Part shown: positions 19,406-47,517 of the stretch, piece by piece | Layout of the letters: every line of letters begins with the position of its first letter | How positions within the stretch are numbered: the first letter of the stretch is position 1 | DNA from: an uncultured Thiogranum sp. | Lineage (GTDB): Bacteria; Pseudomonadota; Gammaproteobacteria; DSM-19610 | NCBI GenBank assembly: GCA_913053655.1 | Contig: CAJXFW010000002.1 | Coordinates: 1-52,316 of the forward strand | Reading direction: 5' to 3' | DNA length: 52,316 nt | The notes under the pieces: generated by a model | Databases searched by the model: none | Seen by the model: the letters and a program-made list of their open reading frames with translations, nothing else | What the model was told of the DNA's origin: nothing | Program-made: the position numbers and the translations under genes

Positions 19406-19419
19406 TTGACCTATGTCAA
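19406..19419 (+). promoter_or_regulatory. FNR/DNR-type box upstream of nirE
   Basis: TTGACCTATGTCAA is a perfect TTGAC-N4-GTCAA inverted repeat. Its centre is about 98 bp before the nirE start, leaving room for a class II promoter and a leader of ~55 nt. It would drive nirE-nirC-nirF-nirDL-nirG-nirH-nirJ under low oxygen or NO. Confidence 0.8.
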
Positions 19420-19510
19420 GGACAGCAAAAACAGCCACCCCCAATATGAGTCCATAAAACCGGGACCGAGGGGCGTGCATCACGGCCGCCGGGCATTCAG
19501 GAGGCGTCGT

Positions 19511-20290
19511 TTGGGAAAACCGGCAAAAATCTATCTGGTGGGTGCGGGACCCGGTGATCCGGACCTGCTCACGGTAAAAGCCCAGCGTTTGATCCAGACG
19601 GCGGACACGGTTGTCTATGACCGGCTGGTGTCGCGTGAAATCCTCAACCTGATACCCGATTCGGTATCGCGTGTGTACGTCGGCAAGGTGACCAATCGCC
19701 ATACACTCAGCCAGCAGGAAATCAACGCGCTGCTGGTGAAACTGGCCAGGAAGCATCAGCGTGTGGTGCGTCTGAAGGGCGGAGACCCTTTCATTTTCGG
19801 CCGCGGCGGTGAAGAGGCGCTGGCACTGGCACGCAACGGTATACTTTTTGAAGTGGTGCCGGGGATTACCGCCGCGCAGGCTTGCGCCGCTTATGCGGGT
19901 ATACCTCTGACCCATCGCGGCCTCGCCCGGGGCGTGCAATTCGTGACCGGGCATTGCAAGGACAACGAGGCGTTGGTGCTTGATCCGGCGGCATTGTCGG
20001 ATACCGGGCAGACATTGGTGATCTATATGGGCCTCGCCCACCTGCCGCAGATTGTTTGCGATCTTGTTGATGCCGGTCGGTCCGCAGATACCCCGGCAGC
20101 AGTTATCGAGCGCGGTACCACACCACGCCAGCGACATATCGTTACGACCCTCGGCGAATTGCCGCAGGTTGTTGAACAACAGACCATTTTATCGCCAGCC
20201 ATATTGATTATCGGGCCGGTCGTTACCCTGGCGGAGGAGCTGGAGTGGTTTATGCCCTGGGCGCAGGAAGTGGAACTCAAATATGCCTAG
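19511..20290 (+). CDS. nirE: Uroporphyrinogen-III C-methyltransferase (heme d1 type)
   Basis: A SAM-dependent methyltransferase of 259 residues that makes precorrin-2, the first committed step toward heme d1. The TTG start at 19511 is preceded by AGGAGG at ideal spacing. The longer open frame would begin inside the FNR box and is rejected. Motifs: VGAGPGDPDLLTVKA, VVYDRLVS, RLKGGDPFIFGRGGEEA and PGITAAQACAAYAGIPLTHR. It overlaps nirC by 8 bp. Confidence 0.95.
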   Translation: MGKPAKIYLVGAGPGDPDLLTVKAQRLIQTADTVVYDRLVSREILNLIPDSVSRVYVGKVTNRHTLSQQEINALLVKLARKHQRVVRLKGGDPFIFGRGGEEALALARNGILFEVVPGITAAQACAAYAGIPLTHRGLARGVQFVTGHCKDNEALVLDPAALSDTGQTLVIYMGLAHLPQIVCDLVDAGRSADTPAAVIERGTTPRQRHIVTTLGELPQVVEQQTILSPAILIIGPVVTLAEELEWFMPWAQEVELKYA

Positions 20291-20603
20291 GACGCTTGTG
20301 TTTCTCGCTCTGTGCGCATTAGCAACGTCTACCACGGCGGCAGCTGTCAGTGCGGAGCGCCAGACCGAGTTACGCGATCTTGTCCACCAGGACTGTGGCG
20401 CCTGCCACGGCATGCGCCTGACCGGTGGACTGGGTCCGGCACTAACGTCACAGGCATTGCAAGGCAAGAGTCATGATTTCCTGTTTGTGACCATCAGCGA
20501 AGGACGGCCCGGAACACCCATGCCGCCGTGGCGAACGCAGCTTACCGAACAGGAAATCAACTGGATCGTCGATTACCTGAAGACGCCGGAGGAAAGCCCG
20601 TGA
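20283..20603 (+). CDS. nirC: Small periplasmic cytochrome c NirC
   Basis: A 106-residue monoheme cytochrome with a signal peptide (LVFLALCALATSTTAAA) and one heme motif CGACHG near residue 38. The likely Met ligand lies in GTPMPPW. It matches cytochrome c55X/NirC of nir clusters, which can pass electrons to NirS and supports d1 maturation. It overlaps nirE at the start and nirF by 4 bp (GTGA), so expression is coupled. Confidence 0.9.
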   Translation: MPRTLVFLALCALATSTTAAAVSAERQTELRDLVHQDCGACHGMRLTGGLGPALTSQALQGKSHDFLFVTISEGRPGTPMPPWRTQLTEQEINWIVDYLKTPEESP

Positions 20604-21769
20604 GATCTTTCCTTGTGGCGGTCTTCACCTTCCTTTTTATTGCCGGTGCTGCGGCCGCAGAGTTGCGTGGCACGGGTGATCTCGGTGTGGTGATAGAACG
20701 CGCCAACGGCAAGCTGCTGGTCGTGGAGCACAGCGGTAACAGCCGTCTGGCCGAGGTCGAAGGACTCGGCGACCTGTCCCACGCGACCGTCGTATTTTCA
20801 CGCGACGAGCGTTACGCCTATGTGTTCGGTCGTGATGGCGGCCTGACCAAAGTCGACATTCTGAAGGGCCGCATCGTGAAGCGGGTGATGCAGGCCGGTA
20901 ACAGCATTGGTGGTGCTATCTCCCAGGATGGAAGGTGGGTTGCTGTTTCCAACTATGAACCGGGCGGGGTGCGGGTGTTCGATGCCGCTACGCTGGAGAT
21001 GGTGGCTGATGTACCCGCTGAGTATGCTCCGGGCAAGTTTTCCAAAACGGTGGGTCTGGTGGACGCGCCCGGCAATCAGTTTGTTTTCAGCCTGTACGAC
21101 GGTGACCAGATCTGGCTTATGGATATGGCGGATCCGCATAAACCCCGCATTAAACGTTTCGAAAATATCGGCAGGGCCCCTTACGATGCCCTGATTACAC
21201 CGGACGGGCGTTATTACATCGCCGGCCTGTTTGGCGAGGACAGTATGGCGCTGCTGGACCTATGGCACCCGGAACAGGGCGTACGGAAAATACTCAAGGG
21301 GTATGCCGCACACGAAGAAAAATTGCCGGTATACAAAATGCCCCACCTCGAAGGCTGGGCGATGGCAGGTGACGAGGCTTTCGTGCCTGCCGTGGGCCAG
21401 CACAAGGTGCTGGTGATGAATGCTGGCAGCTGGCAGCAGCAGGCAGCGATTGATGTGCACGGCCAGCCAATATTCGTTATAGCGCGACCCGACGGTCGCC
21501 AGGTGTGGGTGAACTTCGCTTATCCGGACAATGACACGGTGCAGGTCATCGATGTCGAGTCCCGTCGCATTATAAAAACGCTGAAGCCCGGTAAAGCGGT
21601 ACTGCACATGGAATTTACCCCGCGTGGCGAGAATGTCTGGCTATCGGTACGTGACGAGAACCGTATCGACGTTTATGACACCAGTACCCTGAAGCGTGTG
21701 AAGTCGCTTCAGGCAAATAAACCGAGCGGCATTTTTTTTACTGACCGCGCACACAAGATCGGGTTGTGA
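20600..21769 (+). CDS. nirF: Heme d1 biosynthesis protein NirF
   Basis: A 389-residue d1-type propeller without a c-heme domain. The GTG at 20600 overlaps the nirC stop and gives a signal peptide (SFLVAVFTFLFIAGAAAA). No lipobox Cys is visible, unlike the Pseudomonas lipoprotein form. Blades include YAYVFGRDGGLTKVDI, PDGRYYIAGLFGEDSMALLD and LHMEFTPRGENVWLSV. Known role: a late periplasmic step, proposed as a dehydrogenase-like reaction on the d1 precursor. Confidence 0.93.
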   Translation: MRSFLVAVFTFLFIAGAAAAELRGTGDLGVVIERANGKLLVVEHSGNSRLAEVEGLGDLSHATVVFSRDERYAYVFGRDGGLTKVDILKGRIVKRVMQAGNSIGGAISQDGRWVAVSNYEPGGVRVFDAATLEMVADVPAEYAPGKFSKTVGLVDAPGNQFVFSLYDGDQIWLMDMADPHKPRIKRFENIGRAPYDALITPDGRYYIAGLFGEDSMALLDLWHPEQGVRKILKGYAAHEEKLPVYKMPHLEGWAMAGDEAFVPAVGQHKVLVMNAGSWQQQAAIDVHGQPIFVIARPDGRQVWVNFAYPDNDTVQVIDVESRRIIKTLKPGKAVLHMEFTPRGENVWLSVRDENRIDVYDTSTLKRVKSLQANKPSGIFFTDRAHKIGL

Positions 21770-22773
21770 CCATGGAAGCAATGGTTGAAAAACTGCTCAA
21801 TGATTTCCAGCGTAATTTCCCGCTGGAGCCGATGCCGTTTGAGCAGATCGCGCAGCGCCTGAATACCAGCTCCGAGCAAGTGCTGCAAACGCTGAAAGAC
21901 TTGCAGAAAAGAGGTGCCGTAAGCCGTGTCGGGCCCGTGTTCCAGCCCAACACAGTGGGTGCCAGTACTCTGGTCGCCATGTCGGTAGCGGCCAGCCAGC
22001 TGGACCGTGTTGCTGCAATCATCAACCAGTTTCCCCAGGTCAATCACAACTACGAGCGTGAACACCATTACAATCTGTGGTTTGTAGTCACAGCCGAAAA
22101 CGTTTCGGCACTGGGCACAACGCTCAGGGAGATTCAACTGGAAAGTGGACACCGGGCGCTCTCGTTACCGCTGGTCAGGAATTATCACATTGACCTGGGT
22201 TTCCACATGAACCTTGATCGCCAACATGATATTGCTGTGGTATCGGATGGCTGCGATGAGCCCGAAATTCATTTTGAACGTGAAATGTTGCTGGGTGATG
22301 CAGAGGGTCTCATTGAAGTTATTCAGGCCGGTTTGCCACTGGTTGCACGGCCGTATCAGGCCATCGCAAATCGCCTGGGTTATTCCGAACAGGCTGTGAT
22401 CGACAAGCTGCGCAACATGATCGATGCCGGCATCATCAAGCGGCTTGGGGTTGTGGTACGTCATCACGAACTGGGTTATCACGCCAACGCCATGGTGGTG
22501 TGGGACGTGCCCGGTGAACAGGTCGATAAACTGGGGCACCAGCTCGGGCAGCAGGATTGTGTGACCTTGTGCTATCAGCGGCCGCGGCGTCTTCCGGACT
22601 GGCCGTATAACCTGTTCTGCATGGTACATGGCCGAGACCGTGATGATGTGCTGGCCTGTATTGCGCGTATGGTGGACGGGCTTGGTCTGGATGTGATTCC
22701 GCACACGGTTTTGTTTAGCCGAAAGCGTTTCAAACAGCGTGGTGCGCGATACCGGGGGCATCTCAATGGATGA
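21766..22773 (+). CDS. nirDL: Fused siroheme decarboxylase NirD-NirL
   Basis: A 335-residue protein made of two Lrp/AsnC-like units. Unit 1 (~1-150) is NirD-like (VSRVGPVFQPNTVGASTLVA, NHNYEREHHYNLWFVV). Unit 2 (~165-325) is NirL-like (RLGVVVRHHELGYHANAMVV, DWPYNLFCMVHG). The complex with NirG and NirH decarboxylates siroheme at C12 and C18. The GTG at 21766 overlaps the nirF stop; the ATG at 21772 is also possible. Natural NirDL fusions are known in other denitrifiers. Confidence 0.93.
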   Translation: MTMEAMVEKLLNDFQRNFPLEPMPFEQIAQRLNTSSEQVLQTLKDLQKRGAVSRVGPVFQPNTVGASTLVAMSVAASQLDRVAAIINQFPQVNHNYEREHHYNLWFVVTAENVSALGTTLREIQLESGHRALSLPLVRNYHIDLGFHMNLDRQHDIAVVSDGCDEPEIHFEREMLLGDAEGLIEVIQAGLPLVARPYQAIANRLGYSEQAVIDKLRNMIDAGIIKRLGVVVRHHELGYHANAMVVWDVPGEQVDKLGHQLGQQDCVTLCYQRPRRLPDWPYNLFCMVHGRDRDDVLACIARMVDGLGLDVIPHTVLFSRKRFKQRGARYRGHLNG

Positions 22774-23209
22774 GCTTGACCGCCGCATCATCAACCGGTT
22801 GCAGGGCGGTTTTCCAGTCTGCGAGTGCCCGTTTCTGGAAGCGGCGGAGCTGCTGGGTACTACGGAAAGTGAACTGATAGCGCGGATACAGTGCATGCTG
22901 GACGATGGACGGTTGACGCGTTTCGGTCCCCTGTATCACGCCGAGAATATGGGTGGTGCCCTGAGTCTGTGTGCCATGAAAGTGCCCGCCGGAAGCTTTG
23001 ATGAAAGGGCGGAGCAGGTCAATGCGTTCCCTGAGGTCGCGCATAACTACCAGCGCGATCACGAGTTGAACATGTGGTTTGTGCTGGCGACGGAAACACC
23101 GGAGCAGCTTGATGAGTGTCTGCACGAGATCGAAAAAACTACCGGCCTGCCGGTGATAAACCTTCCCAGAAAGGAAGAATTCTACGTCGGGCCGCACTTC
23201 AAGGTGTAA
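22766..23209 (+). CDS. nirG: Siroheme decarboxylase subunit NirG
   Basis: A 147-residue Lrp/AsnC-like protein; the ATG at 22766 overlaps the end of nirDL. An HTH-like N-part (MDELDRRIINRLQGGFPV) is followed by the ligand domain with TRFGPLYHAENMGGALSLC and AHNYQRDHELNMWFVLA. The conserved His-containing HNYxRxHxxNMWF block marks the NirD/NirG side of the complex. Despite the regulator fold it acts as an enzyme subunit. Confidence 0.92.
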   Translation: MDELDRRIINRLQGGFPVCECPFLEAAELLGTTESELIARIQCMLDDGRLTRFGPLYHAENMGGALSLCAMKVPAGSFDERAEQVNAFPEVAHNYQRDHELNMWFVLATETPEQLDECLHEIEKTTGLPVINLPRKEEFYVGPHFKV

Positions 23210-23212
23210 CGC

Positions 23213-23707
23213 ATGAGTATGAGTGCTGATGATCTGGTACAGCTGGACAGACGCATCGTATTGGCAACCCAGGCCGGGCTGCCACTGGATGCCCGACCCT
23301 ACCACCGGCTGGCCTCTGAGCTGGGCGTGGAACCCGATGTAGTGATGGAGCGTTTCCGCATCATGCTGGATGACGGGCGTATCCGGCGTATCGGCGTGGT
23401 GCCAAACCATTACCGGCTGGGCTACTCGGTTAATGCCATGTCAGTCTGGGATGTGCCGGATGGAAATATAAAGGCGATTGGCAAAAAGGTCGGCGCGCTG
23501 GATATAGTCAGCCATTGTTACCACCGGCCCAGGCACCCGCCCGACTGGCCCTACAACCTGTTCGCCATGGTGCATGGACATAGCCAGGAAGAGGTGCGCT
23601 ACAAGATTGAGCGGATTGCGCGACTACTGGGCGATAAGGTTCGCCGGCACGACGTGTTACTCAGTACACGCATCCTGAAAAAGACAGGATTGAGAATCGG
23701 CAACTAG
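23213..23707 (+). CDS. nirH: Siroheme decarboxylase subunit NirH
   Basis: A 164-residue Lrp/AsnC-like protein of the NirL/NirH side: RRIGVVPNHYRLGYSVNAMS, CYHRPRHPPDWPYNLFAMVH. It starts 3 bp after nirG. It resembles the second half of NirDL, so the operon carries two D/G-like and two L/H-like units in all. Confidence 0.92.
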   Translation: MSMSADDLVQLDRRIVLATQAGLPLDARPYHRLASELGVEPDVVMERFRIMLDDGRIRRIGVVPNHYRLGYSVNAMSVWDVPDGNIKAIGKKVGALDIVSHCYHRPRHPPDWPYNLFAMVHGHSQEEVRYKIERIARLLGDKVRRHDVLLSTRILKKTGLRIGN

Positions 23708-23709
23708 TC

Positions 23710-24921
23710 ATGTTCCGGCTATCACAATATATGCAGGAGCTGAAAACGCCGCTGACCAACCCTCAGCGACGTACCCCTCCGGGGCCGGTGGTCATCTGGA
23801 ACCTGATTCGCCGCTGCAACCTGACCTGCAAGCACTGTTATTCCATTTCTGCCGATATCGATTTCCCGGGCGAGCTGAACACACGGGAAGTGTTCGATGT
23901 TATGGACAATCTGCGCGCGTTCGGGGTGCCGGTACTGATCCTGTCAGGCGGCGAACCCCTGTTGAGGCCGGACATCTATGACATCTCGCAGCGTGCAAAG
24001 GACATGGGTTTCTATGTCGGATTGTCCACCAACGGTACCCTGATCGATGAGCAAAATATTGGCCGGATCGCCGCGCTGGGTTACGACTATGTGGGGATCA
24101 GCATTGACGGTATCCGCGAAACCCATGATCGTTTTCGCCGGAAGCAGGGCGCCTTCGACGCTTCCATGCACGCCATCAGGTTATGCCGAAACGCCGGTAT
24201 CAAGGTGGGTATGCGTTTCACACCGACCCGGGATAATGTGCAGGAACTCCCCCTGTTGCTGGATCTCATGGACAAGGAGGATGTCAACAAGCTATACGTA
24301 TCGCACCTGAACTACGCCGGGCGCGGTAACCGCAACCGGCGGTCGGATGTTGTGCATAAAACCACCCGCTCGGTTATGGATCTTTTATTCGATGCCTGCT
24401 GGTCCGACATTCAGGTGGGTCGCCGGCGTGAATTTGTCACTGGCAATAACGATGCGGACGGTGTTTATCTGCTGCAATGGGTGAAGCGCAATGTCCCGCA
24501 ACAGTATGGGTACATGCACCAGCGCCTGACCCAGTGGGGCGGGAATTCGTCCGGTGTGAATATTGCCAACATTGACAATCTTGGTAACGTCCACCCGGAC
24601 ACCTTCTGGTGGAATTACAATCTTGATAATGTGAAAGAACGGCCATTCTCTGAAATCTGGATGGATACCCGTGATCCGCTGATGGCGGGCCTGAAAGCTT
24701 CACCCCGTCCCCTGAAAGGGCGTTGCCGGGTGTGCAGATACCAGGATATGTGTGGCGGCAACACCCGGGTGCGTGCCTTCCAGCTCACCGGTGATCCCTG
24801 GTGGGAAGATCCCGCCTGTTATCTGGATGATGAAGAGCTGGGCATCTGCGCAGCGGACTATGCGCATGACAAGCCGGAAGATATGGCACTGGAAACGCGC
24901 GTCATCCGGCATGCCGGTTAA
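23710..24921 (+). CDS. nirJ: Radical SAM enzyme NirJ
   Basis: A 403-residue radical SAM / SPASM-type protein. The SAM cluster motif CNLTCKHCY holds C36, C40 and C43. LSGGEPLLRPDIYD and STNGTLIDEQNI follow. The C-terminal auxiliary cluster region has CRVCRYQDMCGGN and a later Cys in WWEDPACYL. Known role: replaces the propionates on rings A and B of didecarboxysiroheme on the way to the d1 oxo groups. It is the last gene of the run. The 220-bp stretch after it holds no gene or clear terminator that I can see. Confidence 0.95.
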   Translation: MFRLSQYMQELKTPLTNPQRRTPPGPVVIWNLIRRCNLTCKHCYSISADIDFPGELNTREVFDVMDNLRAFGVPVLILSGGEPLLRPDIYDISQRAKDMGFYVGLSTNGTLIDEQNIGRIAALGYDYVGISIDGIRETHDRFRRKQGAFDASMHAIRLCRNAGIKVGMRFTPTRDNVQELPLLLDLMDKEDVNKLYVSHLNYAGRGNRNRRSDVVHKTTRSVMDLLFDACWSDIQVGRRREFVTGNNDADGVYLLQWVKRNVPQQYGYMHQRLTQWGGNSSGVNIANIDNLGNVHPDTFWWNYNLDNVKERPFSEIWMDTRDPLMAGLKASPRPLKGRCRVCRYQDMCGGNTRVRAFQLTGDPWWEDPACYLDDEELGICAADYAHDKPEDMALETRVIRHAG

Positions 24922-30543: not shown

Positions 30544-31521
30544 TCACGGATGTACCGGGGTTACGGTGGGTGTCAGTAAATGATAGAGATTAACGACTGC
30601 CAGTAACAGCAGTGCAGCCATTGCATTGTGGGCTGTCACCAACAGCAGAGGCAGTTCGGTGAGTACTGCTGTCATACCCAGTCCTGCCTGTACTATCAGA
30701 AAAACAAGTATGCTGATGGCTGTGTTGCGCAGACGGTTGTTCTGCTTCAAAGCCCTGAGGGCCAGCCAGCCGAGGTACAGGAGTGTGAACAGCGCGCCCA
30801 GTCGGTGTGCCATGTGCACGGTTTTCTGCATGCTGCCGGTGATAACCCTGCCCTGATCATCCGTGCCAAGCGCATTGAACAGGTCGAAGCCGTGCACGAG
30901 ATTGGTGATGGATGCCCAGTCACCGTTGCAACCGGGTAACGTTGTACAGGACGGTCCGGCAAAATCAGCACTGGTGACAGCGCCCAATGCTATCTGCACA
31001 GTCACGACCAGCAGGCCCAGCAGTGCCCAGGGCTTTAATGCCGTCGCTGCATGGTCGCTGGTATCTACGACTTCCACCGCGCGCTGGCTCATCCACCACA
31101 GCAATGCGAGCATTGTCATACCGCCGAGCAGGTTGCCAAATGTGACGGCCGGTATATCCGGTGATGGCGTGCTGACTCCCAGAACTGACAGAAATACGGT
31201 CAGGGCGAAGACTAACAGCGGCACGCCAGGGCCAACACCGCGCGGGCGTCCTCCACGCAGGGACAGGTAGGTGATGGCAACAACAACCAGGCCCAGCAGA
31301 CTCGCCGTAAAGCGGTGTACAGCACCGGCAGTGGTGTTCGGTACCAGGCCATGGTCACGGGTAGCAGGGAGTTGTCCAAAACAGCCCGGCCAGTTTTCGC
31401 AACCCAGGCCGATGCTTTCAAGGCGCAGGTAGGCACTCAACAGGACAGCTGCCAGTGTCAGTACTAATGCCAGAAAAACAAGAGAGGTGTAAAGGATGCC
31501 GGTTTGTGTTCTGTCTGTCAT
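30544..31521 (-). CDS. ctaA: Heme A synthase CtaA/Cox15
   Basis: A 325-residue membrane enzyme with about eight helices that converts heme O to heme A. The ATG at 31521 is preferred because the 22 residues before it are not membrane-like. The paired cysteines in LGCENWPGCFGQ (C41, C47) and the His region NTTAGAVHRFTASLLG are the family marks, with a second Cys pair in PSCTTLPGCNGDW. Its partner ctaB lies 14 kb away beside the CuA oxidase. It is divergent from the CuB-less oxidase-like gene. Confidence 0.93.
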   Translation of the reverse strand: MTDRTQTGILYTSLVFLALVLTLAAVLLSAYLRLESIGLGCENWPGCFGQLPATRDHGLVPNTTAGAVHRFTASLLGLVVVAITYLSLRGGRPRGVGPGVPLLVFALTVFLSVLGVSTPSPDIPAVTFGNLLGGMTMLALLWWMSQRAVEVVDTSDHAATALKPWALLGLLVVTVQIALGAVTSADFAGPSCTTLPGCNGDWASITNLVHGFDLFNALGTDDQGRVITGSMQKTVHMAHRLGALFTLLYLGWLALRALKQNNRLRNTAISILVFLIVQAGLGMTAVLTELPLLLVTAHNAMAALLLLAVVNLYHLLTPTVTPVHP

Positions 31522-31694
31522 AGGCCGGGCGCTGTCGTTGCGGGTACGGGGTTCCTGTTTAATACACAGGCTGGATGCAAATGTCAAAAAAGCAGGCTGG
31601 TGGTTTTATTTTCTAATCGTTATAGTCCCTTGTCAGCATTAAAGACAGTATTTTGCAGTTGTCGGTTTCCATCGAGTGAGCAGTTAAATCCATT

Positions 31695-33068
31695 ATGCAT
31701 GAAGATTACATATTAGTTGTGCCCACCGGAAGTCGTCGTCGCCTGGGCATGGGCTGGCTGTGGCTGGGAGTAGTGGCGCTATTAGGTTCGGGTCTGTTTT
31801 CCCTGCTGCTGGTACTTTCCCGGACGCCGTATATCCAGGATATCATTCCATGGATTGATTTTTTTCATACCGCGCTGGTTGTACATGTGGACCTGTCGGT
31901 GCTGGTCTGGTTTCTGGCTTTTGGTGGTGTGCTCTGGAGTCTTAATTCCACCCCGCGTTTCATGGCGCTCGGCTGGTCTGCGCTGGTATTTGCCGGGCTG
32001 GGTGCTGCGCTTGTGTTTGTGGTGCCATTTCTGGGGCCCGGCAACCCGCTCATGAGCAACTATATCCCGGTATTGCAGACACCTTTATTTACAGTAGCAT
32101 TACTGGGGTTTGGTTTTGGTATAAGCCTGCTCGTATTGCGTAGCATGGTCGCTAATCCACGGGTCGGGATGCGCATGGAAGGGGCGGGCGCATTGCGCTT
32201 TGGTTTGAATACCGCGGCCGTGTCGGCTGCAATGGCCGTATTGGCTTTTGCCTGGTCATACCTGGCGATCCCCGACTCTATGACGGGGAAAGCGTATTTC
32301 GAACTGCTTTTCTGGGGTGGCGGCCATATGCTGCAATTCACCTATACCCTGCTTATGCTGGTAGCCTGGCTGTGGCTGGCATCTGTCTCCGGTGTTCGCT
32401 TGCCACTGAGCCCGCGGGTAGTGCTGATTCTGTTTGTATTCGGGCTGGTGGCCGTGTTTATGGCGCCGCTGATCTATTATTCCTACGCGGTTACCTCCGC
32501 TGAACACATTAAGCTGTTTACCTGGCTCATGGCCTATGGCGGCAGCCTGGCGCCGGTACCTCTGAGTCTGGCGGTATTTTATGGCCTGCTGCGGAGTTCC
32601 CCGGTATCCGGACCACAACTGCCTTTGCGTTCAGCCCTGTGGACCTCCATGATTCTTTTCGGTATCGGAGGCGGTATCGGTTTCTTGATCCACGGCAGTA
32701 ACGTTACTATTCCTGCGCATTATCATGGCTCCATCGTGGGCGTTACGCTGGCCTTTATGGGCCTGACGTACGATTTGCTGCCACGCCTGGGCTATGCCCG
32801 GCCAAACACGAGGCTGGCCACCATACAGCCCTATATCTATGGCGGTGGTCAGCTGTTACACGTACTGGGGCTGGTGTGGTCGGGTGGCTACGGTGTGCAG
32901 CGCAAGGTGGCAGGTACAGAGCAGGCGCTTGACGGTATGGAAAAGATTGTTGCCATGGGATTGATGGGCTTCGGGGGGTTGATCGCTATCATTGGCGGCT
33001 TGCTATTCCTGGTGATCGTATTGGTGGTTATGTTTAAAGGATCCCGGGCGCAGAAGGACGCAGCCTGA
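31695..33068 (+). CDS. Heme-copper-oxidase subunit I-like protein lacking the CuB histidine pair
   Basis: A 457-residue, ~12-helix protein of the heme-copper superfamily. The low-spin heme ligand is H64 (or H58) in FFHTALVVHVDLSVLVWF. H211 in WGGGHMLQF matches the first CuB/FeB histidine. The helix that should carry the His-His pair reads MAPLIYYSYAVTSAEH, with Tyr261-Tyr262 at the aligned place. Both heme ligands of the late helix are kept (IPAHYHGS, H342/H344). So two hemes are likely but a normal CuB site is not. No Tyr stands at H+4. It precedes a small membrane protein, nirI and nirS. Role unknown; NO or redox sensing or electron transfer are options. Confidence 0.8.
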   Translation: MHEDYILVVPTGSRRRLGMGWLWLGVVALLGSGLFSLLLVLSRTPYIQDIIPWIDFFHTALVVHVDLSVLVWFLAFGGVLWSLNSTPRFMALGWSALVFAGLGAALVFVVPFLGPGNPLMSNYIPVLQTPLFTVALLGFGFGISLLVLRSMVANPRVGMRMEGAGALRFGLNTAAVSAAMAVLAFAWSYLAIPDSMTGKAYFELLFWGGGHMLQFTYTLLMLVAWLWLASVSGVRLPLSPRVVLILFVFGLVAVFMAPLIYYSYAVTSAEHIKLFTWLMAYGGSLAPVPLSLAVFYGLLRSSPVSGPQLPLRSALWTSMILFGIGGGIGFLIHGSNVTIPAHYHGSIVGVTLAFMGLTYDLLPRLGYARPNTRLATIQPYIYGGGQLLHVLGLVWSGGYGVQRKVAGTEQALDGMEKIVAMGLMGFGGLIAIIGGLLFLVIVLVVMFKGSRAQKDAA

Positions 33069-33301
33069 TGCCACAATCACAATCCCCGCGCAGTTTGCTA
33101 ACGATGGCTGAAACCGGGGGACAAAACGATAACGCTGTTACAGGCATTCCGGAGCCGGCCCCGGGTGCGGAGGCAGCAGCGATCCATGATGGGCGCGAAG
33201 ATTTAACGGCTTTCTTTACCGTGGGGGTGATCGTTGATGTATTACTGGTGACGGCCTTCCTGTACTGGGCCGTTGGGCAATGGCGTAAGACGAAGAAATA
33301 G
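33068..33301 (+). CDS. Small single-helix membrane protein
   Basis: 77 residues, starting inside the stop of the oxidase-like gene. A disordered, charged N-terminus is followed by one helix (FFTVGVIVDVLLVTAFLYWAV) and a basic tail. Probably an accessory subunit of the upstream protein. Family not recognised. Confidence 0.7.
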   Translation: MPQSQSPRSLLTMAETGGQNDNAVTGIPEPAPGAEAAAIHDGREDLTAFFTVGVIVDVLLVTAFLYWAVGQWRKTKK

Positions 33302-33309
33302 TTGACCGG

Positions 33310-33323
33310 TTGATTTAAATCAA
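33310..33323 (+). promoter_or_regulatory. FNR/DNR box upstream of nirI
   Basis: TTGATTTAAATCAA is a perfect palindrome and an exact FNR consensus (TTGAT-N4-ATCAA). Its centre is about 82 bp before the nirI start, suited to a class II promoter near -41.5. Confidence 0.9.
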
Positions 33324-33397
33324 GGACAGGAGAACCTGGTTGGCGTCTGATCGAATGGGTTGCTGACGGGTCTTCGTACAGAGTGCCGGATTCACCT

Positions 33398-34993
33398 ATG
33401 ATGAATCATCCATTCGCTATTTTTCACCGGTATTTTTTCCGTGCACCGGTGTGGTTCGCCGTATGGGTGCTGGTTGTTACCGGAGCGATTAATACGGCTT
33501 GCGCCGACCCTGTTCACGATCTGGCTATGAAGTATTTTCCGCAGGCAGACCGGGTCGGGGAATTTGAAGGTGAGCCACTCGCCGCACCGGTCCATGCGGG
33601 TGAGCGGTTGCTGGGCTATGTGCTGCGTACCACGGACATTGCGCCCATCCCGGCCTATTCCGGGCAGCCGATTACCCTGCTCGTCGGTATTGGCCTTGAT
33701 GGCCGGATCAGCGGCCTTGAGATCATAAAACACTCTGAACCCATACTGGGTGCCGGGGTCTCTGAGAGAGATCTGAGGCGCTATGTTGATCAGTATCACG
33801 GTATATCGGTACGTGAACGGGTAAAAATGGGCGGTGCACAGCGCGCAGGCTATGTGACAATAGATGGGATTACCGGTGCCACCATTACCGCGATGGTCAT
33901 GAACGCAACGGTTATGAAATCCGTCAAAAAAGTCGCTAAGTCACGCGGCATACCTTTGTCCGCCGGTGTGCCGGTGCAGACAGATGGGCATGCTGCATCA
34001 CCGGCAGGCCGGCAAACTCCGGCCTGGTGGCTGGGTGAGACAAGCGAGCCTTTCTGGGTATTTGCGTGGCATGAGCGCGCGTGGCAGATAGCGGTGTTGT
34101 CTGTCGCGCTCGGTATTCTGGTTTTTATCCTGCTGTTCCAGGACTGGCTGACCCGCCGGCCGAAGCTGTTGCGGTATATCCGTATCGGCTACCTGCTTTT
34201 CACCCTGTTTTTTATTGGTTGGTACACACTCGCCCAGCTTTCAATTATTCACGTGTTGACCTTTATCAATTCCATTCTGCACCAGTTCAGCTGGGAGGCG
34301 TTCCTTGTCGACCCCCTGATATTTATTTTATGGGGGTTTGTGGCGTTGACACTGCTGTTGTGGGGGCGCGGCGTGTATTGCGGCTGGCTGTGTCCGTTCG
34401 GTGCTTTGCAGGAATTGATTCATAAACTCGCCCAGCGTTTAAAAATCCCTGACCACCAGTTTTCGGCGGTCGTACACGAGCGGCTGACGGCAGTAAAATA
34501 CGTCATCTTTGTCGCGCTGTTCGGTCTATCGCTGCAATCCATCGGCTACGCGGCCAGGGCCGCCGAAGTGGAGCCATTTAAAACGGCCATTGTGGTGCAC
34601 TTCAACCGGGGCGGTATTTTTCTTGTCTATGCCCTTGGGTTGCTTGTGATCGGAGTATTCAACCGCAAGTTCTTCTGTAAGTACCTCTGTCCACTCGGGG
34701 CGGCTCTGGCGATTCCGGCGCCGCTGCGAATCTTTGACTGGCTGCGGCGGCGCAAGGAATGTGGCCGGCCCTGCCAGATCTGTGCCAGGCAGTGTGAGGT
34801 ACAGGCCATTCGGCTTACCGGTGAAATTAACCCCAACGAGTGTCACTACTGTCTGGATTGTCAGGTGACTTACTGGGACGATCGTCAGTGCCCGCCGCTA
34901 TCGGAAAAACGCATCAGAAGAGAAAAAAGCAGGGCAGCGCTGGATAAAATGCGCGCCACACAGCCGAAAACCCCTGGTTCCCCGGAAAAATAG
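33398..34993 (+). CDS. nirI: NirI/NosR-family flavin and iron-sulfur membrane protein
   Basis: About 531 residues. A signal helix is followed by an FMN-binding domain (IDGITGATITAMVMNA, the Thr of GATxT being the flavin site). About five membrane helices follow. Polyferredoxin-like CxxxCP motifs lie in YCGWLCPFGA and CKYLCPLGA, and the Cys-rich end has CGRPCQICARQC and CHYCLDCQ. It is shorter than typical NosR. No nosZ is in the window and nirS is next, so NirI is preferred; NirI is needed for nirS expression or activity in Paracoccus. A GTG at 33383 is an alternative start. Confidence 0.85.
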   Translation: MMNHPFAIFHRYFFRAPVWFAVWVLVVTGAINTACADPVHDLAMKYFPQADRVGEFEGEPLAAPVHAGERLLGYVLRTTDIAPIPAYSGQPITLLVGIGLDGRISGLEIIKHSEPILGAGVSERDLRRYVDQYHGISVRERVKMGGAQRAGYVTIDGITGATITAMVMNATVMKSVKKVAKSRGIPLSAGVPVQTDGHAASPAGRQTPAWWLGETSEPFWVFAWHERAWQIAVLSVALGILVFILLFQDWLTRRPKLLRYIRIGYLLFTLFFIGWYTLAQLSIIHVLTFINSILHQFSWEAFLVDPLIFILWGFVALTLLLWGRGVYCGWLCPFGALQELIHKLAQRLKIPDHQFSAVVHERLTAVKYVIFVALFGLSLQSIGYAARAAEVEPFKTAIVVHFNRGGIFLVYALGLLVIGVFNRKFFCKYLCPLGAALAIPAPLRIFDWLRRRKECGRPCQICARQCEVQAIRLTGEINPNECHYCLDCQVTYWDDRQCPPLSEKRIRREKSRAALDKMRATQPKTPGSPEK

Positions 34994-35013: not shown

Positions 35014-36843
<1,830 letters not shown>

Positions 36844-36906: not shown

Positions 36907-37374
36907 TCAGATATCCCACTTTCTGTTCGTCCTCGACATGTCGAATTCATCGAGTTGCCGTGAAATATCTTCGCGTTTGGCCTCCAGAATATGACTCGCC
37001 ATGGGCAGAAAGATATCTTCTTCCTTTTCATGATGTTTTATCATCTGTTTTTCCAGGTGGACCAGGCATTCAAGAACGTGGTCCGAGTCCCTGGTTTTGA
37101 TGACCCGCGACATATCCGTAACAAGACGTACGATGTGGTCGTGTTCTTCTCGCAGTGCGCCTGTCGGCCCCTGCGGCGCATGTGTCTCGGCTTCGTAGGC
37201 TGGATACAGTACCTCCTCTTCCAGGGCCATATGCCGTTTCAGGTGTGTGACCATTTTCCTGAACAGCAGATCGGCAGTCTTCCAGTCCTCGATTTCAATG
37301 GCTTCGGTACACCGGGAAAGGAGGTTCTCATACAGCGAGTGTTCGTGTACCAGCCAGTTTTCGGTGCTGCTCAT
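36907..37374 (-). CDS. Hemerythrin HHE-domain protein 1
   Basis: 155 residues, four-helix HHE fold. Iron ligands are suggested by WLVHEHSLYENLL, HLKRHMALEEEVLYP, LREEHDHIV and MIKHHEKEEDIFLP. Such proteins bind O2 or NO, or protect iron-sulfur clusters. It is convergent with nirS. A 12-residue leader ORF ends over its start codon, suggesting coupled translation. Confidence 0.92.
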   Translation of the reverse strand: MSSTENWLVHEHSLYENLLSRCTEAIEIEDWKTADLLFRKMVTHLKRHMALEEEVLYPAYEAETHAPQGPTGALREEHDHIVRLVTDMSRVIKTRDSDHVLECLVHLEKQMIKHHEKEEDIFLPMASHILEAKREDISRQLDEFDMSRTNRKWDI

Positions 37375-38750: not shown

Positions 38751-38802
38751 TGTAGGAGCGGGCTTTGCCCGCGAAAAATTCGCCACCAAGGTGGCTCCTA
38801 CA
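38751..38802 (+). repeat. REP element of the TGTAGGAGC family
   Basis: TGTAGGAGCGGGC and GGTGGCTCCTACA face each other around GCGAAAAATTCGC. This is the common short palindromic family of gammaproteobacterial genomes. It shares the outer TGTAGGAGCGG with the larger palindrome at 43241-43311. Confidence 0.8.
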
Positions 38803-38829
38803 TCCGTCAATGTTAATCGGAGGTACACC

Positions 38830-39282
38830 ATGTTTGGTTTCAAGAGTTCCGCTGCCAAAGATGATTCGCATTGTCTATTGAAAGAAGTGGGTCTGGCAAC
38901 GCTCAACAAACAGCACCTGCGCCTGGCGAGTTACGCCGTGGAATTCAGCCAGATCGTGGATGAGTTGTCGGCCCGGGAACCCGTCAATGAGGACTGGCGC
39001 CGTATTGACGCGTTGTTCAGCAAGATCACACGATTCGTAGCCACACATTTCTCGGAGGAAGAAGAGTTGATGCGCAAGTACGATTACCCGGACTATGTCG
39101 CACACAAGAAACTGCACGATAAATTCTCCGCCGAGATGCGCAAGATGCAGGCGGAGATCAATAACCGGAATATCAAGTTCAAAAAGAAAATGAGCAGCCT
39201 GCTCTGGGACTGGCTGTACCATCATATCAACGAGATCGATTACCGGTACAGGGAGTTCTTCCTGAGCAAGGGATTAAGCTAA
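38830..39282 (+). CDS. Bacteriohemerythrin (hemerythrin 2)
   Basis: 150 residues from the ATG at 38830, after CGGAGG. It has the classic pattern NKQHLRLASYAVEF, THFSEEEELMRKYDYPDY, AHKKLHDKFSAEM and WLYHHINEIDYRY, giving five His plus carboxylate ligands for a di-iron O2/NO site. It stands alone between two repeat elements. Confidence 0.93.
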   Translation: MFGFKSSAAKDDSHCLLKEVGLATLNKQHLRLASYAVEFSQIVDELSAREPVNEDWRRIDALFSKITRFVATHFSEEEELMRKYDYPDYVAHKKLHDKFSAEMRKMQAEINNRNIKFKKKMSSLLWDWLYHHINEIDYRYREFFLSKGLS

Positions 39283-41125: not shown

Positions 41126-41629
41126 TCACTTGATAATAAACTTGCCGGTTTCGGAGTTAAAATTGACCACCAGGAGTTGGGTCGGTTTCAGGGTTACCGC
41201 TTCCTCATCAGTGTACGTAGGGCCTTTTACGCGCACATTGTCATTCATCTGTACGGCCAGCGTATGTTTCCCTGCGGATACCTTGGCGCTACGGTAGATA
41301 TCGACACCCAGGTCACTGTAAAGGCCTGGTGCACGAGCAACTTCTTCAAGCAGCGGTTTACCGTCCAGTAGCAGTTTTACCGTGACGGGTGAGCGCTCGC
41401 GCGGGCAGTCCAGGGGGGCGCGCATATTGGGCGGTAGCCTGGCCAGTTCCTGTTGGGACAGTTTGCGGCATTCTTCAACGCGTTTACCGGCATGGGAAAA
41501 CGCCACCGTAATAACCGCCTGGTCCGGCTGAAGTTGCCGGTAAGGTGGCGCGGTGGAGAAATACCATATCAGCAGCATGAACAGGGTATAGTTCAGCGCC
41601 TGCAAAGGGTAACGCAGGATCTTAATCAT
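41126..41629 (-). CDS. Membrane-anchored periplasmic protein of unknown function
   Basis: 167 residues. One N-terminal helix (LNYTLFMLLIWYFS) precedes a beta-rich domain with SPVTVKLLLDGKPLLEE and AGKHTLAVQMNDNVRV, which look like Ig-like strands. It overlaps the cytochrome b fusion gene by 8 bp and ends the minus-strand oxidase cluster. Probably a dedicated accessory factor. Family not recognised. Confidence 0.75.
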   Translation of the reverse strand: MIKILRYPLQALNYTLFMLLIWYFSTAPPYRQLQPDQAVITVAFSHAGKRVEECRKLSQQELARLPPNMRAPLDCPRERSPVTVKLLLDGKPLLEEVARAPGLYSDLGVDIYRSAKVSAGKHTLAVQMNDNVRVKGPTYTDEEAVTLKPTQLLVVNFNSETGKFIIK

Positions 41630-43163
41630 TGGATACCGGCTCTTCCTGCTTCAGTGTGGCAATGTCATGCTGGAATTCAGCAAGCTTGCGGCGCAGCCTG
41701 GCAGTGTCGGTTTCAGCGGCCCGGTATACGGTGATGCGGTCACGTTTTGCGCGTTGTCGGAGTACCGGTTTGCGTCCGCCCTCTAAACGCTGGTCCAGCC
41801 AGGCATTACCCAAACGGTAGTAACAGTCACCGGTGCGGCATCCAGTGATAAACACGCCGTCGGCGCCGTGTCTTTGTGCATACTCGACCAGTGTCGGCGG
41901 GATCATTCCCGTGCAGTAAAGGCTCAGCACGGCGACGTCCTGTGACTGGAATTCTTTAATATCGACAGCATTGTCACAGCCGAACAGGATGATGCGGGTA
42001 TCGCCCTTGAGTCCGGCCAGCGCGGCATGGGTGCGTGTGCGGACTTCATCAATCGGGAAGTCGGGCATATCGATACCGGTTTCAAGTGTCTTCCGCGCGT
42101 GCCGGAAGGGATTGGAGGAATGGCAGGAACCGACGCAGATACCACAGGCGGCGCACAGAACGGGATTGACGACAACTTCGTTTTCCCAGCGCTCCCCGTC
42201 AGTTCGTGCCTGAACCGAAATGGCATCGAAGGGGCAATCTTCGGCGCACTGGCCACAGCCGTTGCACTGATCGAGGTGAACTTCGGCCGCACTCCCGGTT
42301 TTTTTGGGTGGCAGCCACGGCATCAGCATCAGTAGCAGGGTAATACCCGTTGTCAGTATCCAGACCTGGTCCGGCGGCCATTTGTCGAGCAGCGGATAGA
42401 CATTGAGGTAGAACCAGTCGAGATTCAGCACCGCCGGTACCCGGCTAAGATCCGCCGGACCGTGACTGGTCGCCGGCGCCAGCAAGGACGTTGTCAGCAA
42501 GGCCAGGAAGCTGCCCACGGCCAGGCCTCGGGGGGCACTGATCCCGACGTGGGAAAGCCGCTTGACGTGAATCCAGAGGGCAAAGATCAATAATATCGGC
42601 TGTCCCAGCAGGTGCAGGAAGCCCATCAGGGTAAACAGCCGGTCGGTGAGCCGCCCCGCCAGAAAATCACGCGCCATGGAGCCCGACATCACCGGCAGCG
42701 AGTCCATGAGCCGGGCGGAGAGCGTTGCAACGTACAGCCCCAGTTCGTCCCACACCAGCCAGTAGCCGGTTATACCCAGAGTGATAACGAACCAAAGGGT
42801 TGGCACGCCGGTAAACCAGGACCACCAGCGGAAGCCACGGTAGCGGTCCAGGGCGAACTCACGGAACATATGCAGCAGGATAGTGACCACGGCGGCATCC
42901 GAGGCGTAGCGGTGCAGGCTGCGCATAATTCCGCCCGCATACCACTGTTGGCGGGTCATGTACTCTACCGAAGTATAGGCGCCGTGAATGCTGGTGTTGA
43001 AAAAGATAAACAGGTAGAGGCCGCTGACCAGCACGATCCAGAAGAAGAAAAAGGTCAGCGTTCCCAGGTGATAGAGCGGGTTCCAGTCCGGACCGAAAGA
43101 AAAACTGAACCATCTCTCGAGCAGAAGGTAACTGCGCTTGATGGGATTAACGCGTTTGTTCAC
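41622..43163 (-). CDS. Cytochrome b / 2x[4Fe-4S] ferredoxin / MvhD-type fusion protein
   Basis: 513 residues from the GTG at 43163; a longer frame begins inside a palindrome and is rejected. The N-terminal ~215 residues are a bc1/b6-type cytochrome b: H84 and H98 in one helix (H-x13-H) and a second pair in the helix ending FALWIHVKR. Two ferredoxin motifs follow (CNGCGQCAEDCP, CAACGICVGSC). A C-terminal MvhD/HdrD-like domain has FGC, YCTGM and GCRTGDC cysteines. It should move electrons between quinol, hemes b and an iron-sulfur chain. Context suggests service to the adjacent heme-copper enzyme. An FNR box lies upstream. Confidence 0.88.
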   Translation of the reverse strand: MNKRVNPIKRSYLLLERWFSFSFGPDWNPLYHLGTLTFFFFWIVLVSGLYLFIFFNTSIHGAYTSVEYMTRQQWYAGGIMRSLHRYASDAAVVTILLHMFREFALDRYRGFRWWSWFTGVPTLWFVITLGITGYWLVWDELGLYVATLSARLMDSLPVMSGSMARDFLAGRLTDRLFTLMGFLHLLGQPILLIFALWIHVKRLSHVGISAPRGLAVGSFLALLTTSLLAPATSHGPADLSRVPAVLNLDWFYLNVYPLLDKWPPDQVWILTTGITLLLMLMPWLPPKKTGSAAEVHLDQCNGCGQCAEDCPFDAISVQARTDGERWENEVVVNPVLCAACGICVGSCHSSNPFRHARKTLETGIDMPDFPIDEVRTRTHAALAGLKGDTRIILFGCDNAVDIKEFQSQDVAVLSLYCTGMIPPTLVEYAQRHGADGVFITGCRTGDCYYRLGNAWLDQRLEGGRKPVLRQRAKRDRITVYRAAETDTARLRRKLAEFQHDIATLKQEEPVSND

Positions 43164-43240
43164 GGTGTCAATCTCTCGGGCTGCATAATGGCGGGTGTCG
43201 TTATTCGCCAGGCCTCTCGACCCCGGGGTTCCGGACAACA

Positions 43241-43311
43241 CCTGTAGGAGCGGTCTCCTGACCGCGACAGCCGCTTCAGGAGAATCGCGGTCAGGAGACC
43301 GCTCCTACAGG
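43241..43311 (+). repeat. Perfect 27-bp inverted repeat, REP family
   Basis: Arms 43241-43267 and 43285-43311 are exact reverse complements with a 17-nt loop. The outer part, CCTGTAGGAGCGG, belongs to the same family as 38751-38802. It lies in the leader between the FNR box and the start of the cytochrome b fusion gene. Confidence 0.9.
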
Positions 43312-43344: not shown

Positions 43345-43358
43345 TTGATATATCTCAA
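43345..43358 (-). promoter_or_regulatory. FNR/DNR-like box before the cytochrome b fusion gene
   Basis: On the minus strand TTGAGATATATCAA, one mismatch from TTGAT-N4-ATCAA. It overlaps the stop codon of the SCO gene. Its centre is ~188 bp before the fusion gene start. Confidence 0.6.
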
Positions 43359-44206
43359 GTACGTGCCGAACGCTGACTATGCCTGATTTCGCGTATCAGG
43401 AGAATGATACCAGTGAGAATAATGGATGCGCCTATAGCCATACCGATAAACAGGGAATAGTCAAAATAGTAGGCATCCCGCGCCGGATCGTAACTGGTGC
43501 AGAAAAAGTGTATTTTGTCTATCAGTTCGGAGAGCAGGGTCTGGTTCGGCCTGGGTCTTCCAAGCACCAGTTCCTTGAGCGGCTCTACCAGTAACGGAGT
43601 GTCAAATACTTCTCCGTATACCTGTCGGTAGACACGCCCCTCGGCATCGATCACCGTGGCCTGTGTGATGTGGTCGAAGCCATTGGGTGAAGAGAAAAAT
43701 TCGAATCCCAACTCCTTGCTCAAGGCCTTGATAGTGTCCGGGCTGGCACTGAGCAGTCGCCAGCCACCGGTATCTATACCCTGCTTCCTGGCAAACTGGA
43801 GCATCGCCTGCGGGCTGTCGTTATAGGCGTCGAAGCCCAGCACGGCCACGTTGAAGCTGTCTTTCCCCAGTGCTGCGCGGGCTTTGTCGACCACTTTGGC
43901 GAGGTGGCGGGTGGTCATGGGACAGGTATGGTAGCAGCTGGTATAGATCATGCTCAGTACCAGCGGCTTGCCGCGCAAGTCGTCTATGGACAGGGCATGG
44001 CCCTTCTCGTCGGTCAGGGAGTAGTTGCTGAGCAGGTTGCCGATAGCGTCCTGGCTGCGTTGCAGCGCTTCCTTGTGCTGGAAGTTCTTGATCGCATCCA
44101 GCTGCTGATTTCCGCCTGTTGGCCCGGTCGCTGCGTTGGCCAGGTGGAAAAATGCTGCACAGAAAAAACCCAGTAGCAGGGCAGAAGGCTTTGATGAATA
44201 GTGCAT
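43355..44206 (-). CDS. SCO1/SenC-family copper chaperone
   Basis: 283 residues from the ATG at 44206. A signal helix (LLLGFFCAAFFHLANA) leads to a thioredoxin-like domain with the copper motif YTSCYHTCPMT (C91, C95) and a later His in DHITQATVID. A C-terminal helix (IGMAIGASIILTGIILL) gives an extra anchor. Role: delivers copper to the CuA site of subunit II. It follows ctaB in the oxidase cluster; senC also accompanies the norSY genes of nitrifiers. Confidence 0.9.
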   Translation of the reverse strand: MHYSSKPSALLLGFFCAAFFHLANAATGPTGGNQQLDAIKNFQHKEALQRSQDAIGNLLSNYSLTDEKGHALSIDDLRGKPLVLSMIYTSCYHTCPMTTRHLAKVVDKARAALGKDSFNVAVLGFDAYNDSPQAMLQFARKQGIDTGGWRLLSASPDTIKALSKELGFEFFSSPNGFDHITQATVIDAEGRVYRQVYGEVFDTPLLVEPLKELVLGRPRPNQTLLSELIDKIHFFCTSYDPARDAYYFDYSLFIGMAIGASIILTGIILLIREIRHSQRSART

Positions 44207-44246
44207 GTTCAGGTGCCCTGGCGGCGAATGATGTCGCCCTACGTTA

Positions 44247-45158
44247 TCAGCCAATCAGCTGGGCGTCGAGCACGGCAAATACCAGCAACACGGCCAATTG
44301 AACCAGCGAGGCGAAAAAGGCGCGCATGCCATTCTTCGGTGAGGTGTCCAGTACCAGCAGCAGACTGCGGTAGATAAAATATCCGCCGCCGATGAGGGCG
44401 CCGACCAGGTAAAGCCAGCCGAGGCCGAAGAAAAATGGCAAAATCGACATACCCGTCAGCAACAGCGTGTTACCCAGTACTGCTTTAGCTGCGGTCGCGT
44501 CGCCAACCTTTACCGGTAGCATGGGTACACCGACAGCTTCGTAGTCTTTATGCCGTGCAATGGCCAGGCTCCAGAAATGGGGAGGCGTCCACAAAAACAG
44601 CACCATGGCCAGGATAACGGGTACCGGCCCCAGACCGGGATCGACCACGGCTGCGCCCGCGAGTACGGCGAAACTGCCCGCGGCGCCACCGATCACAATA
44701 TTGAACGACGTGCGGCGTTTCAGCCACACGGTATAGACGACGGCATAAAAGAAGGCGCCCAGAAAGATATACAGGGCGGCCATGCCGTTGAGTAGCCAAC
44801 CGGCTGTGCCTACACCGATCAGCAGCATAGTGCCGATTAACAGCAGCCACCAGCGGCTGTGTGCGAAGGCGCCGGTTACAAAGGGCCGGTCATTGGTGCG
44901 GCGCATGCGTGCATCAATGTCGACTTCATAGTACTGGTTGAACGCACCCGCGCTGCCGGCTGCCAGCAATACAGTGAGCGCCAGAACCAGCACCTGCCAG
45001 GCGGGGACCGCCTGTCCGGGTGTCACCAGAAGGGTCACCACTGAAGTGAGTGCCATGACCACGCCAATACGGAGCTTGAAGAGATTGGACAGCTGTTTAA
45101 GCATTGTCGACCAATCAAGTTGCTGTGTTAAGGCGGCATCTGCGTAGAGTCTTTGCAT
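44247..45158 (-). CDS. ctaB: Protoheme IX farnesyltransferase (heme O synthase)
   Basis: 303 residues, UbiA fold with about eight to nine helices. The Mg/diphosphate motif NQYYEVDIDARMRRTNDRPF is present, and a second motif lies near ARHKDYEAVGVPMLPV. It attaches farnesyl to heme B, giving heme O, which CtaA can turn into heme A. Its place beside the oxidase implies that the enzyme uses heme O or A. Confidence 0.95.
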   Translation of the reverse strand: MQRLYADAALTQQLDWSTMLKQLSNLFKLRIGVVMALTSVVTLLVTPGQAVPAWQVLVLALTVLLAAGSAGAFNQYYEVDIDARMRRTNDRPFVTGAFAHSRWWLLLIGTMLLIGVGTAGWLLNGMAALYIFLGAFFYAVVYTVWLKRRTSFNIVIGGAAGSFAVLAGAAVVDPGLGPVPVILAMVLFLWTPPHFWSLAIARHKDYEAVGVPMLPVKVGDATAAKAVLGNTLLLTGMSILPFFFGLGWLYLVGALIGGGYFIYRSLLLVLDTSPKNGMRAFFASLVQLAVLLVFAVLDAQLIG

Positions 45159-46974: not shown

Positions 46975-47517
46975 TCACTCCTTCACGTAGATTCTGCCGA
47001 GCATGGTGCTATGCCCGATACCACAATATTCGTTACACACCACCCCATATGTACCTGCCACATCGGGCGTGATGTTCAACACCATTTCGTAGCCGGGAAT
47101 AACCTCCATGTTGATGTTGACGGGTTGCAGGGAAAAACCGTGCTGCCAGTCCATGGAGGACAGATGCAGGCGATAGGTTTTGTCTTTTTCCAGTTCCAGG
47201 ATGGGCCACCATTGCCACAGTCGCGCCAGCATGTAGACATCGCTGCCGGCCGGCGGGGCGACAACGGGGATCTGCTGATCGGTTTCGGTACGCACGGTGT
47301 ACTTGTCGATCATGGCCTGGACCTTGGGGCCATACTGGGCCGGTGTGGTCTTGTAGGCCTCGTTGGACAGGTTCTGCTTCCCGAAGACATGCCAGTACGG
47401 CATCATAAAAAACAGAATCAGGCACCAGGTGAGAGCGATGGCGATCCAGACGATCTCCTGACGACCAACGGGTTCATTCCACCAGATGCGCTGGGCAGGC
47501 GGTAAATAAGTGGTCAT
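46975..47517 (-). CDS. Heme-copper oxidase subunit II with CuA site (NorS-like)
   Basis: 180 residues. One membrane helix (~22-40) anchors a cupredoxin domain. The CuA ligands are complete: H126 (SMDWQHGF), C161, E163, C165, H169 and M172 in CNEYCGIGHSTM. No fused cytochrome c domain. It takes electrons from a periplasmic cytochrome and passes them to subunit I. The single-helix form and small size match B-type oxidases and NorS-like proteins. Confidence 0.92.
   Translation of the reverse strand: MTTYLPPAQRIWWNEPVGRQEIVWIAIALTWCLILFFMMPYWHVFGKQNLSNEAYKTTPAQYGPKVQAMIDKYTVRTETDQQIPVVAPPAGSDVYMLARLWQWWPILELEKDKTYRLHLSSMDWQHGFSLQPVNINMEVIPGYEMVLNITPDVAGTYGVVCNEYCGIGHSTMLGRIYVKE

Follow-up and report, generated by a model that had tools for sequence, protein, structure and literature searches.

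The 52,316-nucleotide stretch of DNA analysed here (the window), from an uncultured Thiogranum sp. (NCBI GenBank assembly GCA_913053655.1, contig CAJXFW010000002.1), encodes a protein, designated COX*, that belongs to a hitherto unnamed clade lacking CuB within the heme-copper oxidoreductase superfamily. A His-His pair is the signature of this superfamily, which stands behind aerobic respiration and NO reduction, and a deep, widespread clade that lacks the pair yet keeps every heme ligand was unexpected. Both the fold of COX* and the loss of the pair are well supported. No description of a subunit I clade without CuB was found in the literature covered, which did not extend to the 2024 PNAS survey of NOR families by Murali and co-workers. 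The gene and its ligand codons lie as follows.

31695–33068, + strand: COX*, heme-copper oxidase (HCO)-fold protein without CuB, 457 aa, 12 predicted transmembrane helices
31884–31886, + strand: codon of H64, low-spin heme ligand (helix II), kept in 84 of 85 homologues and in 124 of 126 sequences of a larger alignment
32325–32327, + strand: codon of H211, CuB-ligand position of helix VI, kept in 126 of 126 and followed by an invariant Q214
32475–32480, + strand: codons of Y261-Y262, at the CuB His-His position of helix VII by alignment
32718–32726, + strand: codons of H342-Y343-H344, high-spin and low-spin heme ligand positions of helix X, both His kept in 126 of 126

A preliminary description of this DNA, made from the sequence alone, had proposed an HCO-like protein without the CuB His-His pair that fits no named enzyme, and both points were borne out. 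The open reading frame is present, as is an overlapping one for a one-helix protein (33068–33301). COX* matches Pfam COX1 (PF00115) at 41.4 bits against a cut-off of 34.8 (44.9 bits in a second, genome-level search), and no NCBIfam model matched it. A structure model, called for in the same description, was built with AF2 from 76 homologues and contains the expected helices (pLDDT 90.4, pTM 0.93). COX* thus passes the curated Pfam threshold for the HCO superfamily and has the 12-helix subunit I fold, with helices assigned by AF2/DSSP. The best Foldseek matches of the model in the PDB were ba3 (TM-score 0.70), cbb3, aa3/bo3 and cNOR. A phmmer search of the PDB with the single COX* sequence returned nothing, and a COX* profile had a B-type oxidase as its sole match (5e-5). 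Five PF00115 genes were found in the source genome: by sequence one A-type and two cbb3-type, together with COX* and P0002, the other subunit I of the window.

Ligand positions were read from alignment to P0002 and to proteins of the A, B and C families. In every HCO tried the low-spin heme ligand coincides with H64, and position 58 is Arg, Gln or Lys in homologues; of the two residues first offered for this role, H64 is therefore retained and H58 is not the ligand. H211 aligns with the CuB His of helix VI and H342 and H344 with the helix X pair, as had been described. Y261-Y262 aligns with H277-H278 of P0002 and lies at the end of helix VII, which stops at residue 263 in the model. COX* accordingly has the bis-His low-spin heme site and the proximal His of helices II and X, but of the three CuB/FeB His it keeps only that of helix VI. 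Because the three-His site is incomplete, COX* is filed as a sister clade without CuB and not as a functional HCO. The FeB site of cNOR and qNOR (three His and a conserved Glu) is likewise absent from COX* rows, which have no His pair. Judged from the sequence, this ligand set is consistent with the suggested two-heme type without an ordinary binuclear centre.

The loss of CuB is a trait of the family and not the decay of a single copy. His-His occurs at 261–262 in none of the rows of the 85-row homologue alignment, where 82 rows have Tyr at 261 and, at 262, 49 have Leu and 24 have Tyr. Tyr261 is thus common and residue 262 usually Leu, so that the Tyr-Tyr pair whose conservation was to be checked is not itself conserved. 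The addition of divergent copies gave 126 rows, including a few repeats and one stray eNOR (L118). Here the helix VII pair was missing from every COX* row, H211, Q214, H342 and H344 were invariant, and R403 and K404 were kept in 123–124. Position 261 is a lone His in one subclade, and an unrelated, non-conserved HH occurs at about residues 268–273 in a few members. Since no homologue rebuilds the pair, neither of the two objections foreseen in the preliminary description, a His pair elsewhere on helix VII or homologues retaining His-His, holds.

A quick tree of 52 HCO proteins with SH-aLRT support placed all COX* in one clade (support 100) on a stem of 2.15 changes per column, with eNOR as sister (support 95) and the B family as the next group out. 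Given the quick build and the long stem, the exact sister of COX* is less sure than the clade itself. The window carries an eNOR operon.

45244–46968, − strand: eNOR subunit I (P0002), intact HH, GHSSQQ with Gln at the cross-linked Tyr position, assigned by alignment and tree
46975–47517, − strand: eNOR subunit II, CuA cupredoxin
47545–47709, − strand: eNOR one-helix subunit, of the same kind as in Defluviimonas, Thermomicrobium and Thermus and different from the protein next to COX*
44247–45158, − strand: CyoE/CtaB heme O synthase
43355–44254, − strand: SCO1/SenC copper chaperone
41622–43241, − strand: cytochrome b–ferredoxin–FlpD fusion, with a homologue near COX* in most eNOR loci
41126–41629, − strand: membrane-anchored protein, whose homologue usually directly precedes COX* in eNOR operons

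P0002 is an eNOR by the published criterion, Gln at the position of the cross-linked Tyr of oxygen reductases (PMC8756737). An sNOR identity, raised by the SCO/SenC neighbour, was rejected because this position is Gln and not Asn. COX* itself is not an eNOR: its motif is GHxxQF, with Gln at H+3 and mostly Phe at H+4, and it falls outside the eNOR clade. The HCO fold, the eNOR sister clade and CuA partners at some loci could suit a copper-free reductase acting on NO, nitrite or O2 at a single-heme active site. We nevertheless regard such an enzyme, the new reductase of the preliminary description, as very unlikely, because two of the three second-metal His are gone in every COX* homologue and a separate, intact eNOR is present. 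All HCO reductases known to us use a second metal held by three His. It is scarcely credible that COX* is a catalytically dead eNOR duplicate in the course of being lost. Two CuB ligands are missing and an eNOR is encoded in the same genome, but the gene is intact and widespread: 519 of 583 pattern matches in a scan of a genome collection were confirmed as COX* relatives, and 25 of the 252 high-quality genomes of a class sample carry it. The deep stem and the invariant residues also contradict decay.

To relate COX* to its genomic setting, 134 COX* loci were compared, many of them from metagenome-assembled genomes. Seongchinamella sediminis U0301 is a cultured carrier (locus L046). In most homologues COX* is the last gene of an eNOR operon. 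Among 80 loci the common order was eNOR II, eNOR I, CyoE, SCO, the cytochrome b–ferredoxin–FlpD gene, a gene like that at 41126 and COX*. Among the 275 genomes of the class sample, for which association tests ignore phylogeny, COX* was present in 29, eNOR in 25 and both in 20 (odds ratio 107). In eNOR-negative genomes COX* lies beside aa3/CyoE/SURF1 genes (with aa3 clusters in L108, L110 and L111), adjoins CtaA/CyoE in L115, and adjoins rpoH in L109 and L114. One eNOR-positive genome, G157, has a second, divergent COX* copy behind an aa3-type gene (L117).

COX* is also linked to heme A synthase. About 46 of the 134 loci (a few of which overlap) have a CtaA/COX15 gene no more than 2 kb from COX*, upstream or downstream and on either strand. 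In L182, L186, L187 and L189 a canonical CtaA gene lies on the COX* strand and directly adjoins or overlaps COX*; divergent or overlapping pairs occur in L169, L170, L175, L180 and L181, with no oxidase gene detected in 12–19 kb. CtaA is present in 27 of 29 COX* genomes versus 152 of 246 others. Of the two COX* genomes without it, G261 has its COX* divided between contigs and G269 has the COX* type linked to ResB/CcsA. In the window the partner is a variant, designated CtaA*.

30544–31587, − strand: CtaA* (COX15-CtaA family), divergent from COX* across about 107 bp, with AGAVHR and the helix IV His replaced by Asn

With residue roles (catalytic Glu, heme His) taken from PMC12808453, CtaA* lacks the Glu of ExxHR (E57), has Asn in place of H123 and retains the C-terminal pair of heme His. 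These losses are shared by most CtaA homologues of gammaproteobacterial eNOR/COX* clusters, and the COX15-type partners of COX* elsewhere keep all residues. Table 1 of PMC8239418 lists a CtaA type 1.1 variant with E57K and H123N, and names Acidiferrobacteraceae and Accumulibacter. A second, canonical CtaA is encoded on another contig of the source genome. Proteins of the CtaA* kind may produce or handle a different heme, or serve as partners without catalytic activity.

A second COX* clade has another setting. In L149–L156, L160 and L112 (the last from the class sample), COX* is the last gene of an operon that also encodes a multiheme cytochrome c, ResB and CcsA; contig ends cut some of these operons. 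Most clade-2 proteins run past the oxidase fold into TPR repeats, which Pfam confirmed in L151, L153 and L157; in L157 the TPR is present and the multiheme cytochrome–ResB–CcsA operon is absent. The clade-2 operon probably encodes a dedicated cytochrome c synthase with an oxidase-fold subunit lacking CuB.

COX* genes thus recur beside genes that modify heme or build oxidases, with linkage to CtaA, CyoE, SCO or CcsA-ResB of the kind that marks oxidase and heme maturation proteins, which suggests that COX* is probably a helper for heme or electrons and not a gas-consuming enzyme. Our tentatively favoured reading, held at not quite an even chance, is that COX* would be a diheme membrane auxiliary without CuB, serving HCO and cytochrome maturation through heme handling or electron supply. 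With its bis-His low-spin heme site (H64/H344) and with H342 as proximal His of a second heme, COX* would most likely bind two hemes. Without the His pair no heme-copper or heme-iron catalytic pair could form, and the invariant H211 might serve as a distal ligand capping the second heme, which would then be hexacoordinate. In organisms that make eNOR or aa3 oxidase, such a protein may work alongside CyoE and members of the CtaA family while enzymes with heme O or A mature, either by taking up, holding, transferring or reducing heme or by providing electrons. Clade-2 proteins would do likewise next to ResB-CcsA cytochrome c synthases, for multiheme cytochromes and usually with a TPR domain. A more specific form of this reading is possible, though rather doubtful: COX* could be a heme-handling pseudo-subunit I that has given up gas reduction and partners heme A synthase and cytochrome c synthase, taking or reducing new heme o or a and delivering it to the true subunit I of eNOR or aa3, paired in eNOR organisms with a CtaA homologue lacking the Glu.

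Several observations weigh against a maturation role. With its catalytic Glu and one heme His missing, CtaA* does not make heme A in this setting. Since CtaA, CyoE and SCO genes cluster with oxidases anyway, the linkage possibly reflects in part an oxidase-associated respiratory role. Certain COX* genes have rpoH as a neighbour and no heme or oxidase partner in the vicinity, 5 of the 25 eNOR genomes carry no COX*, and a CuA-type COX2-like gene lies next to COX* in L158 and L182, an arrangement suited to electron transfer. These CuA-type neighbours keep electron transfer as the main rival. In that case COX* would be a diheme b subunit carrying electrons between quinol, cytochrome b–FlpD or CuA/cytochrome c and eNOR, an oxidase or multiheme cytochromes, with H211 and H342 making the second heme a low-spin relay. 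Both heme ligand sets are kept, the operon is shared with the cytochrome b–ferredoxin–FlpD protein and a CuA subunit, and clade-2 COX* comes after multiheme cytochromes. However, electron transfer leaves unexplained both the one-to-one CtaA/COX15 pairing away from oxidase genes and the ResB-CcsA and TPR of clade 2. The eNOR genomes without COX* also speak against it, as do the Defluviimonas, Thermus and Thermomicrobium plasmids, on which COX* is not beside the eNOR genes. A plasmid tblastn search with COX* returned nothing. We rate this alternative, which the preliminary description had also offered, as on the unlikely side and below maturation. Maturation is preferred because the partners common to both COX* clades are heme-processing enzymes and not one donor or acceptor.

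On its other side, COX* in the window is followed by nitrite reduction genes, in the order CtaA*, COX*, one-helix gene, FNR box, nirI and nirS.

33068–33301, + strand: one-helix protein overlapping the end of COX*, 77 aa, with homologues near COX* in a subset of loci
33310–33323, + strand: exact FNR-type box between the one-helix gene and nirI
33383–34993, + strand: NirI/NosR-like FMN and 4Fe-4S membrane protein, a local neighbour
35071–36843, + strand: NirS, cytochrome cd1 nitrite reductase, a local neighbour

An FNR-type box with one mismatch lies at 35027, before nirS (9 sites against 1.4 expected). The scan of the window found no such box upstream of COX*, so that the exact box lies between COX* and nirI. 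The boxes before nirI and before nirS agree with the FNR-driven nirI and nirS initially noted after COX*. The nirI-nirS neighbourhood is a local rearrangement. NirS lies within 10 kb of COX* in 22 of the 134 loci, and the COX*–NirS association was weak once eNOR-positive genomes had been removed from the 275-genome sample (p = 0.07). The implied tie to nirI and nirS was thus not upheld, homologues being found mostly in eNOR operons or beside CtaA/aa3 genes, and a general nir-cluster function of COX* was rejected on the same counts. The suggested pairing with the one-helix protein stands as far as the overlapping reading frame goes, but this protein is a lineage-specific neighbour. Its homologues lie on the opposite strand near COX* in L055, L076 and L095, a pairing that survives rearrangement. 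It was also considered as a homologue of the eNOR small subunit; the two differ, as judged by eye.

The first proposal made for this protein was a heme-based NO/O2 sensor; on this reading COX* would be a membrane sensor or gas buffer controlling denitrification or oxidase genes. In its favour, a five-coordinate heme held by H342 could take up NO or O2 in the absence of CuB, the contexts include nir, eNOR and aa3 genes, and rpoH is adjacent in three loci. We consider such a role quite unlikely: apart from rpoH no supporting regulator lies beside COX* and none is conserved there, clade-1 proteins have no output domain, the CtaA/CyoE/SCO and CcsA/ResB neighbours are not regulatory, and the COX* promoter has no FNR box.

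Further genes of nitrite and NO metabolism were noted in the window. A NirN-like cd1 protein (17714–19360, + strand; best PDB match 6rtd) is followed by the heme d1 genes NirE, NirF, NirDL, NirG, NirH and NirJ (19406–24921, + strand). Three hemerythrin-like genes surround nirS and the eNOR genes (36907–37374, − strand; 38791–39282, + strand; 47912–48355, + strand), the last called from sequence alone; one of the three adjoins an exact FNR-type box (47803) that lies upstream of the eNOR operon. Their products are possible NO-binding or repair proteins. The unannotated one-helix protein at 47545–47709, directly upstream of eNOR subunit II, is probably a third eNOR subunit. The 41622–43241 fusion joins a cytochrome b6-like membrane domain, a ferredoxin and an FlpD/MvhD domain and is conserved across lineages. 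It is a candidate for an unusual electron-input module for NO reduction. Gallionella-like loci have it doubled, with the second copy after COX*. The 41126–41629 protein belongs to no Pfam or NCBIfam family and has about 50 homologues, and in most eNOR operons its gene stands between the cytochrome b–FlpD gene and COX*.

COX* genes match the general family of oxidase subunit I, so subunit I counts in genome surveys may overstate the number of oxidases or NORs. The pairing of COX* with heme A synthase bears on how heme A made by CtaA enters subunit I, or on the source of electrons for these steps, and it also gives reason to look for unusual hemes in eNOR.

Among known systems, eNOR subunit I resembles COX* in its heme ligands, in the Gln at H+3 of the helix VI His and in sharing an operon with it in many genomes. 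It differs in having the CuB His-His and a Gln at H+4, neither of which COX* has; COX* also has about 8 residues fewer before helix X and is about 115 aa shorter. The closest solved fold is that of subunit I of the B-family (ba3-type) oxygen reductases, compared with which COX* has no CuB pair and no cross-linked tyrosine, with 16–19% identity over the structural alignment. The CtaA type 1.1 variant resembles CtaA* in having lost E57 and in its Asn at H123, and the passages of PMC8239418 covered here do not connect it with eNOR or an oxidase-like partner. According to PMC9145763, the route by which heme A gets to subunit I is unknown and more factors are expected. Surf1, Cox11/CtaG, CtaM and other oxidase assembly factors are, like COX*, encoded with oxidase and heme A genes. 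However, Surf1, Cox11/CtaG and CtaM have no homology to COX*, which has the oxidase fold itself and whose role in assembly is a proposal. In cytochrome c maturation, CcmF and CcmI combine a heme-binding membrane protein with a TPR module. This setting resembles that of clade-2 COX* with ResB-CcsA, although the fold differs.
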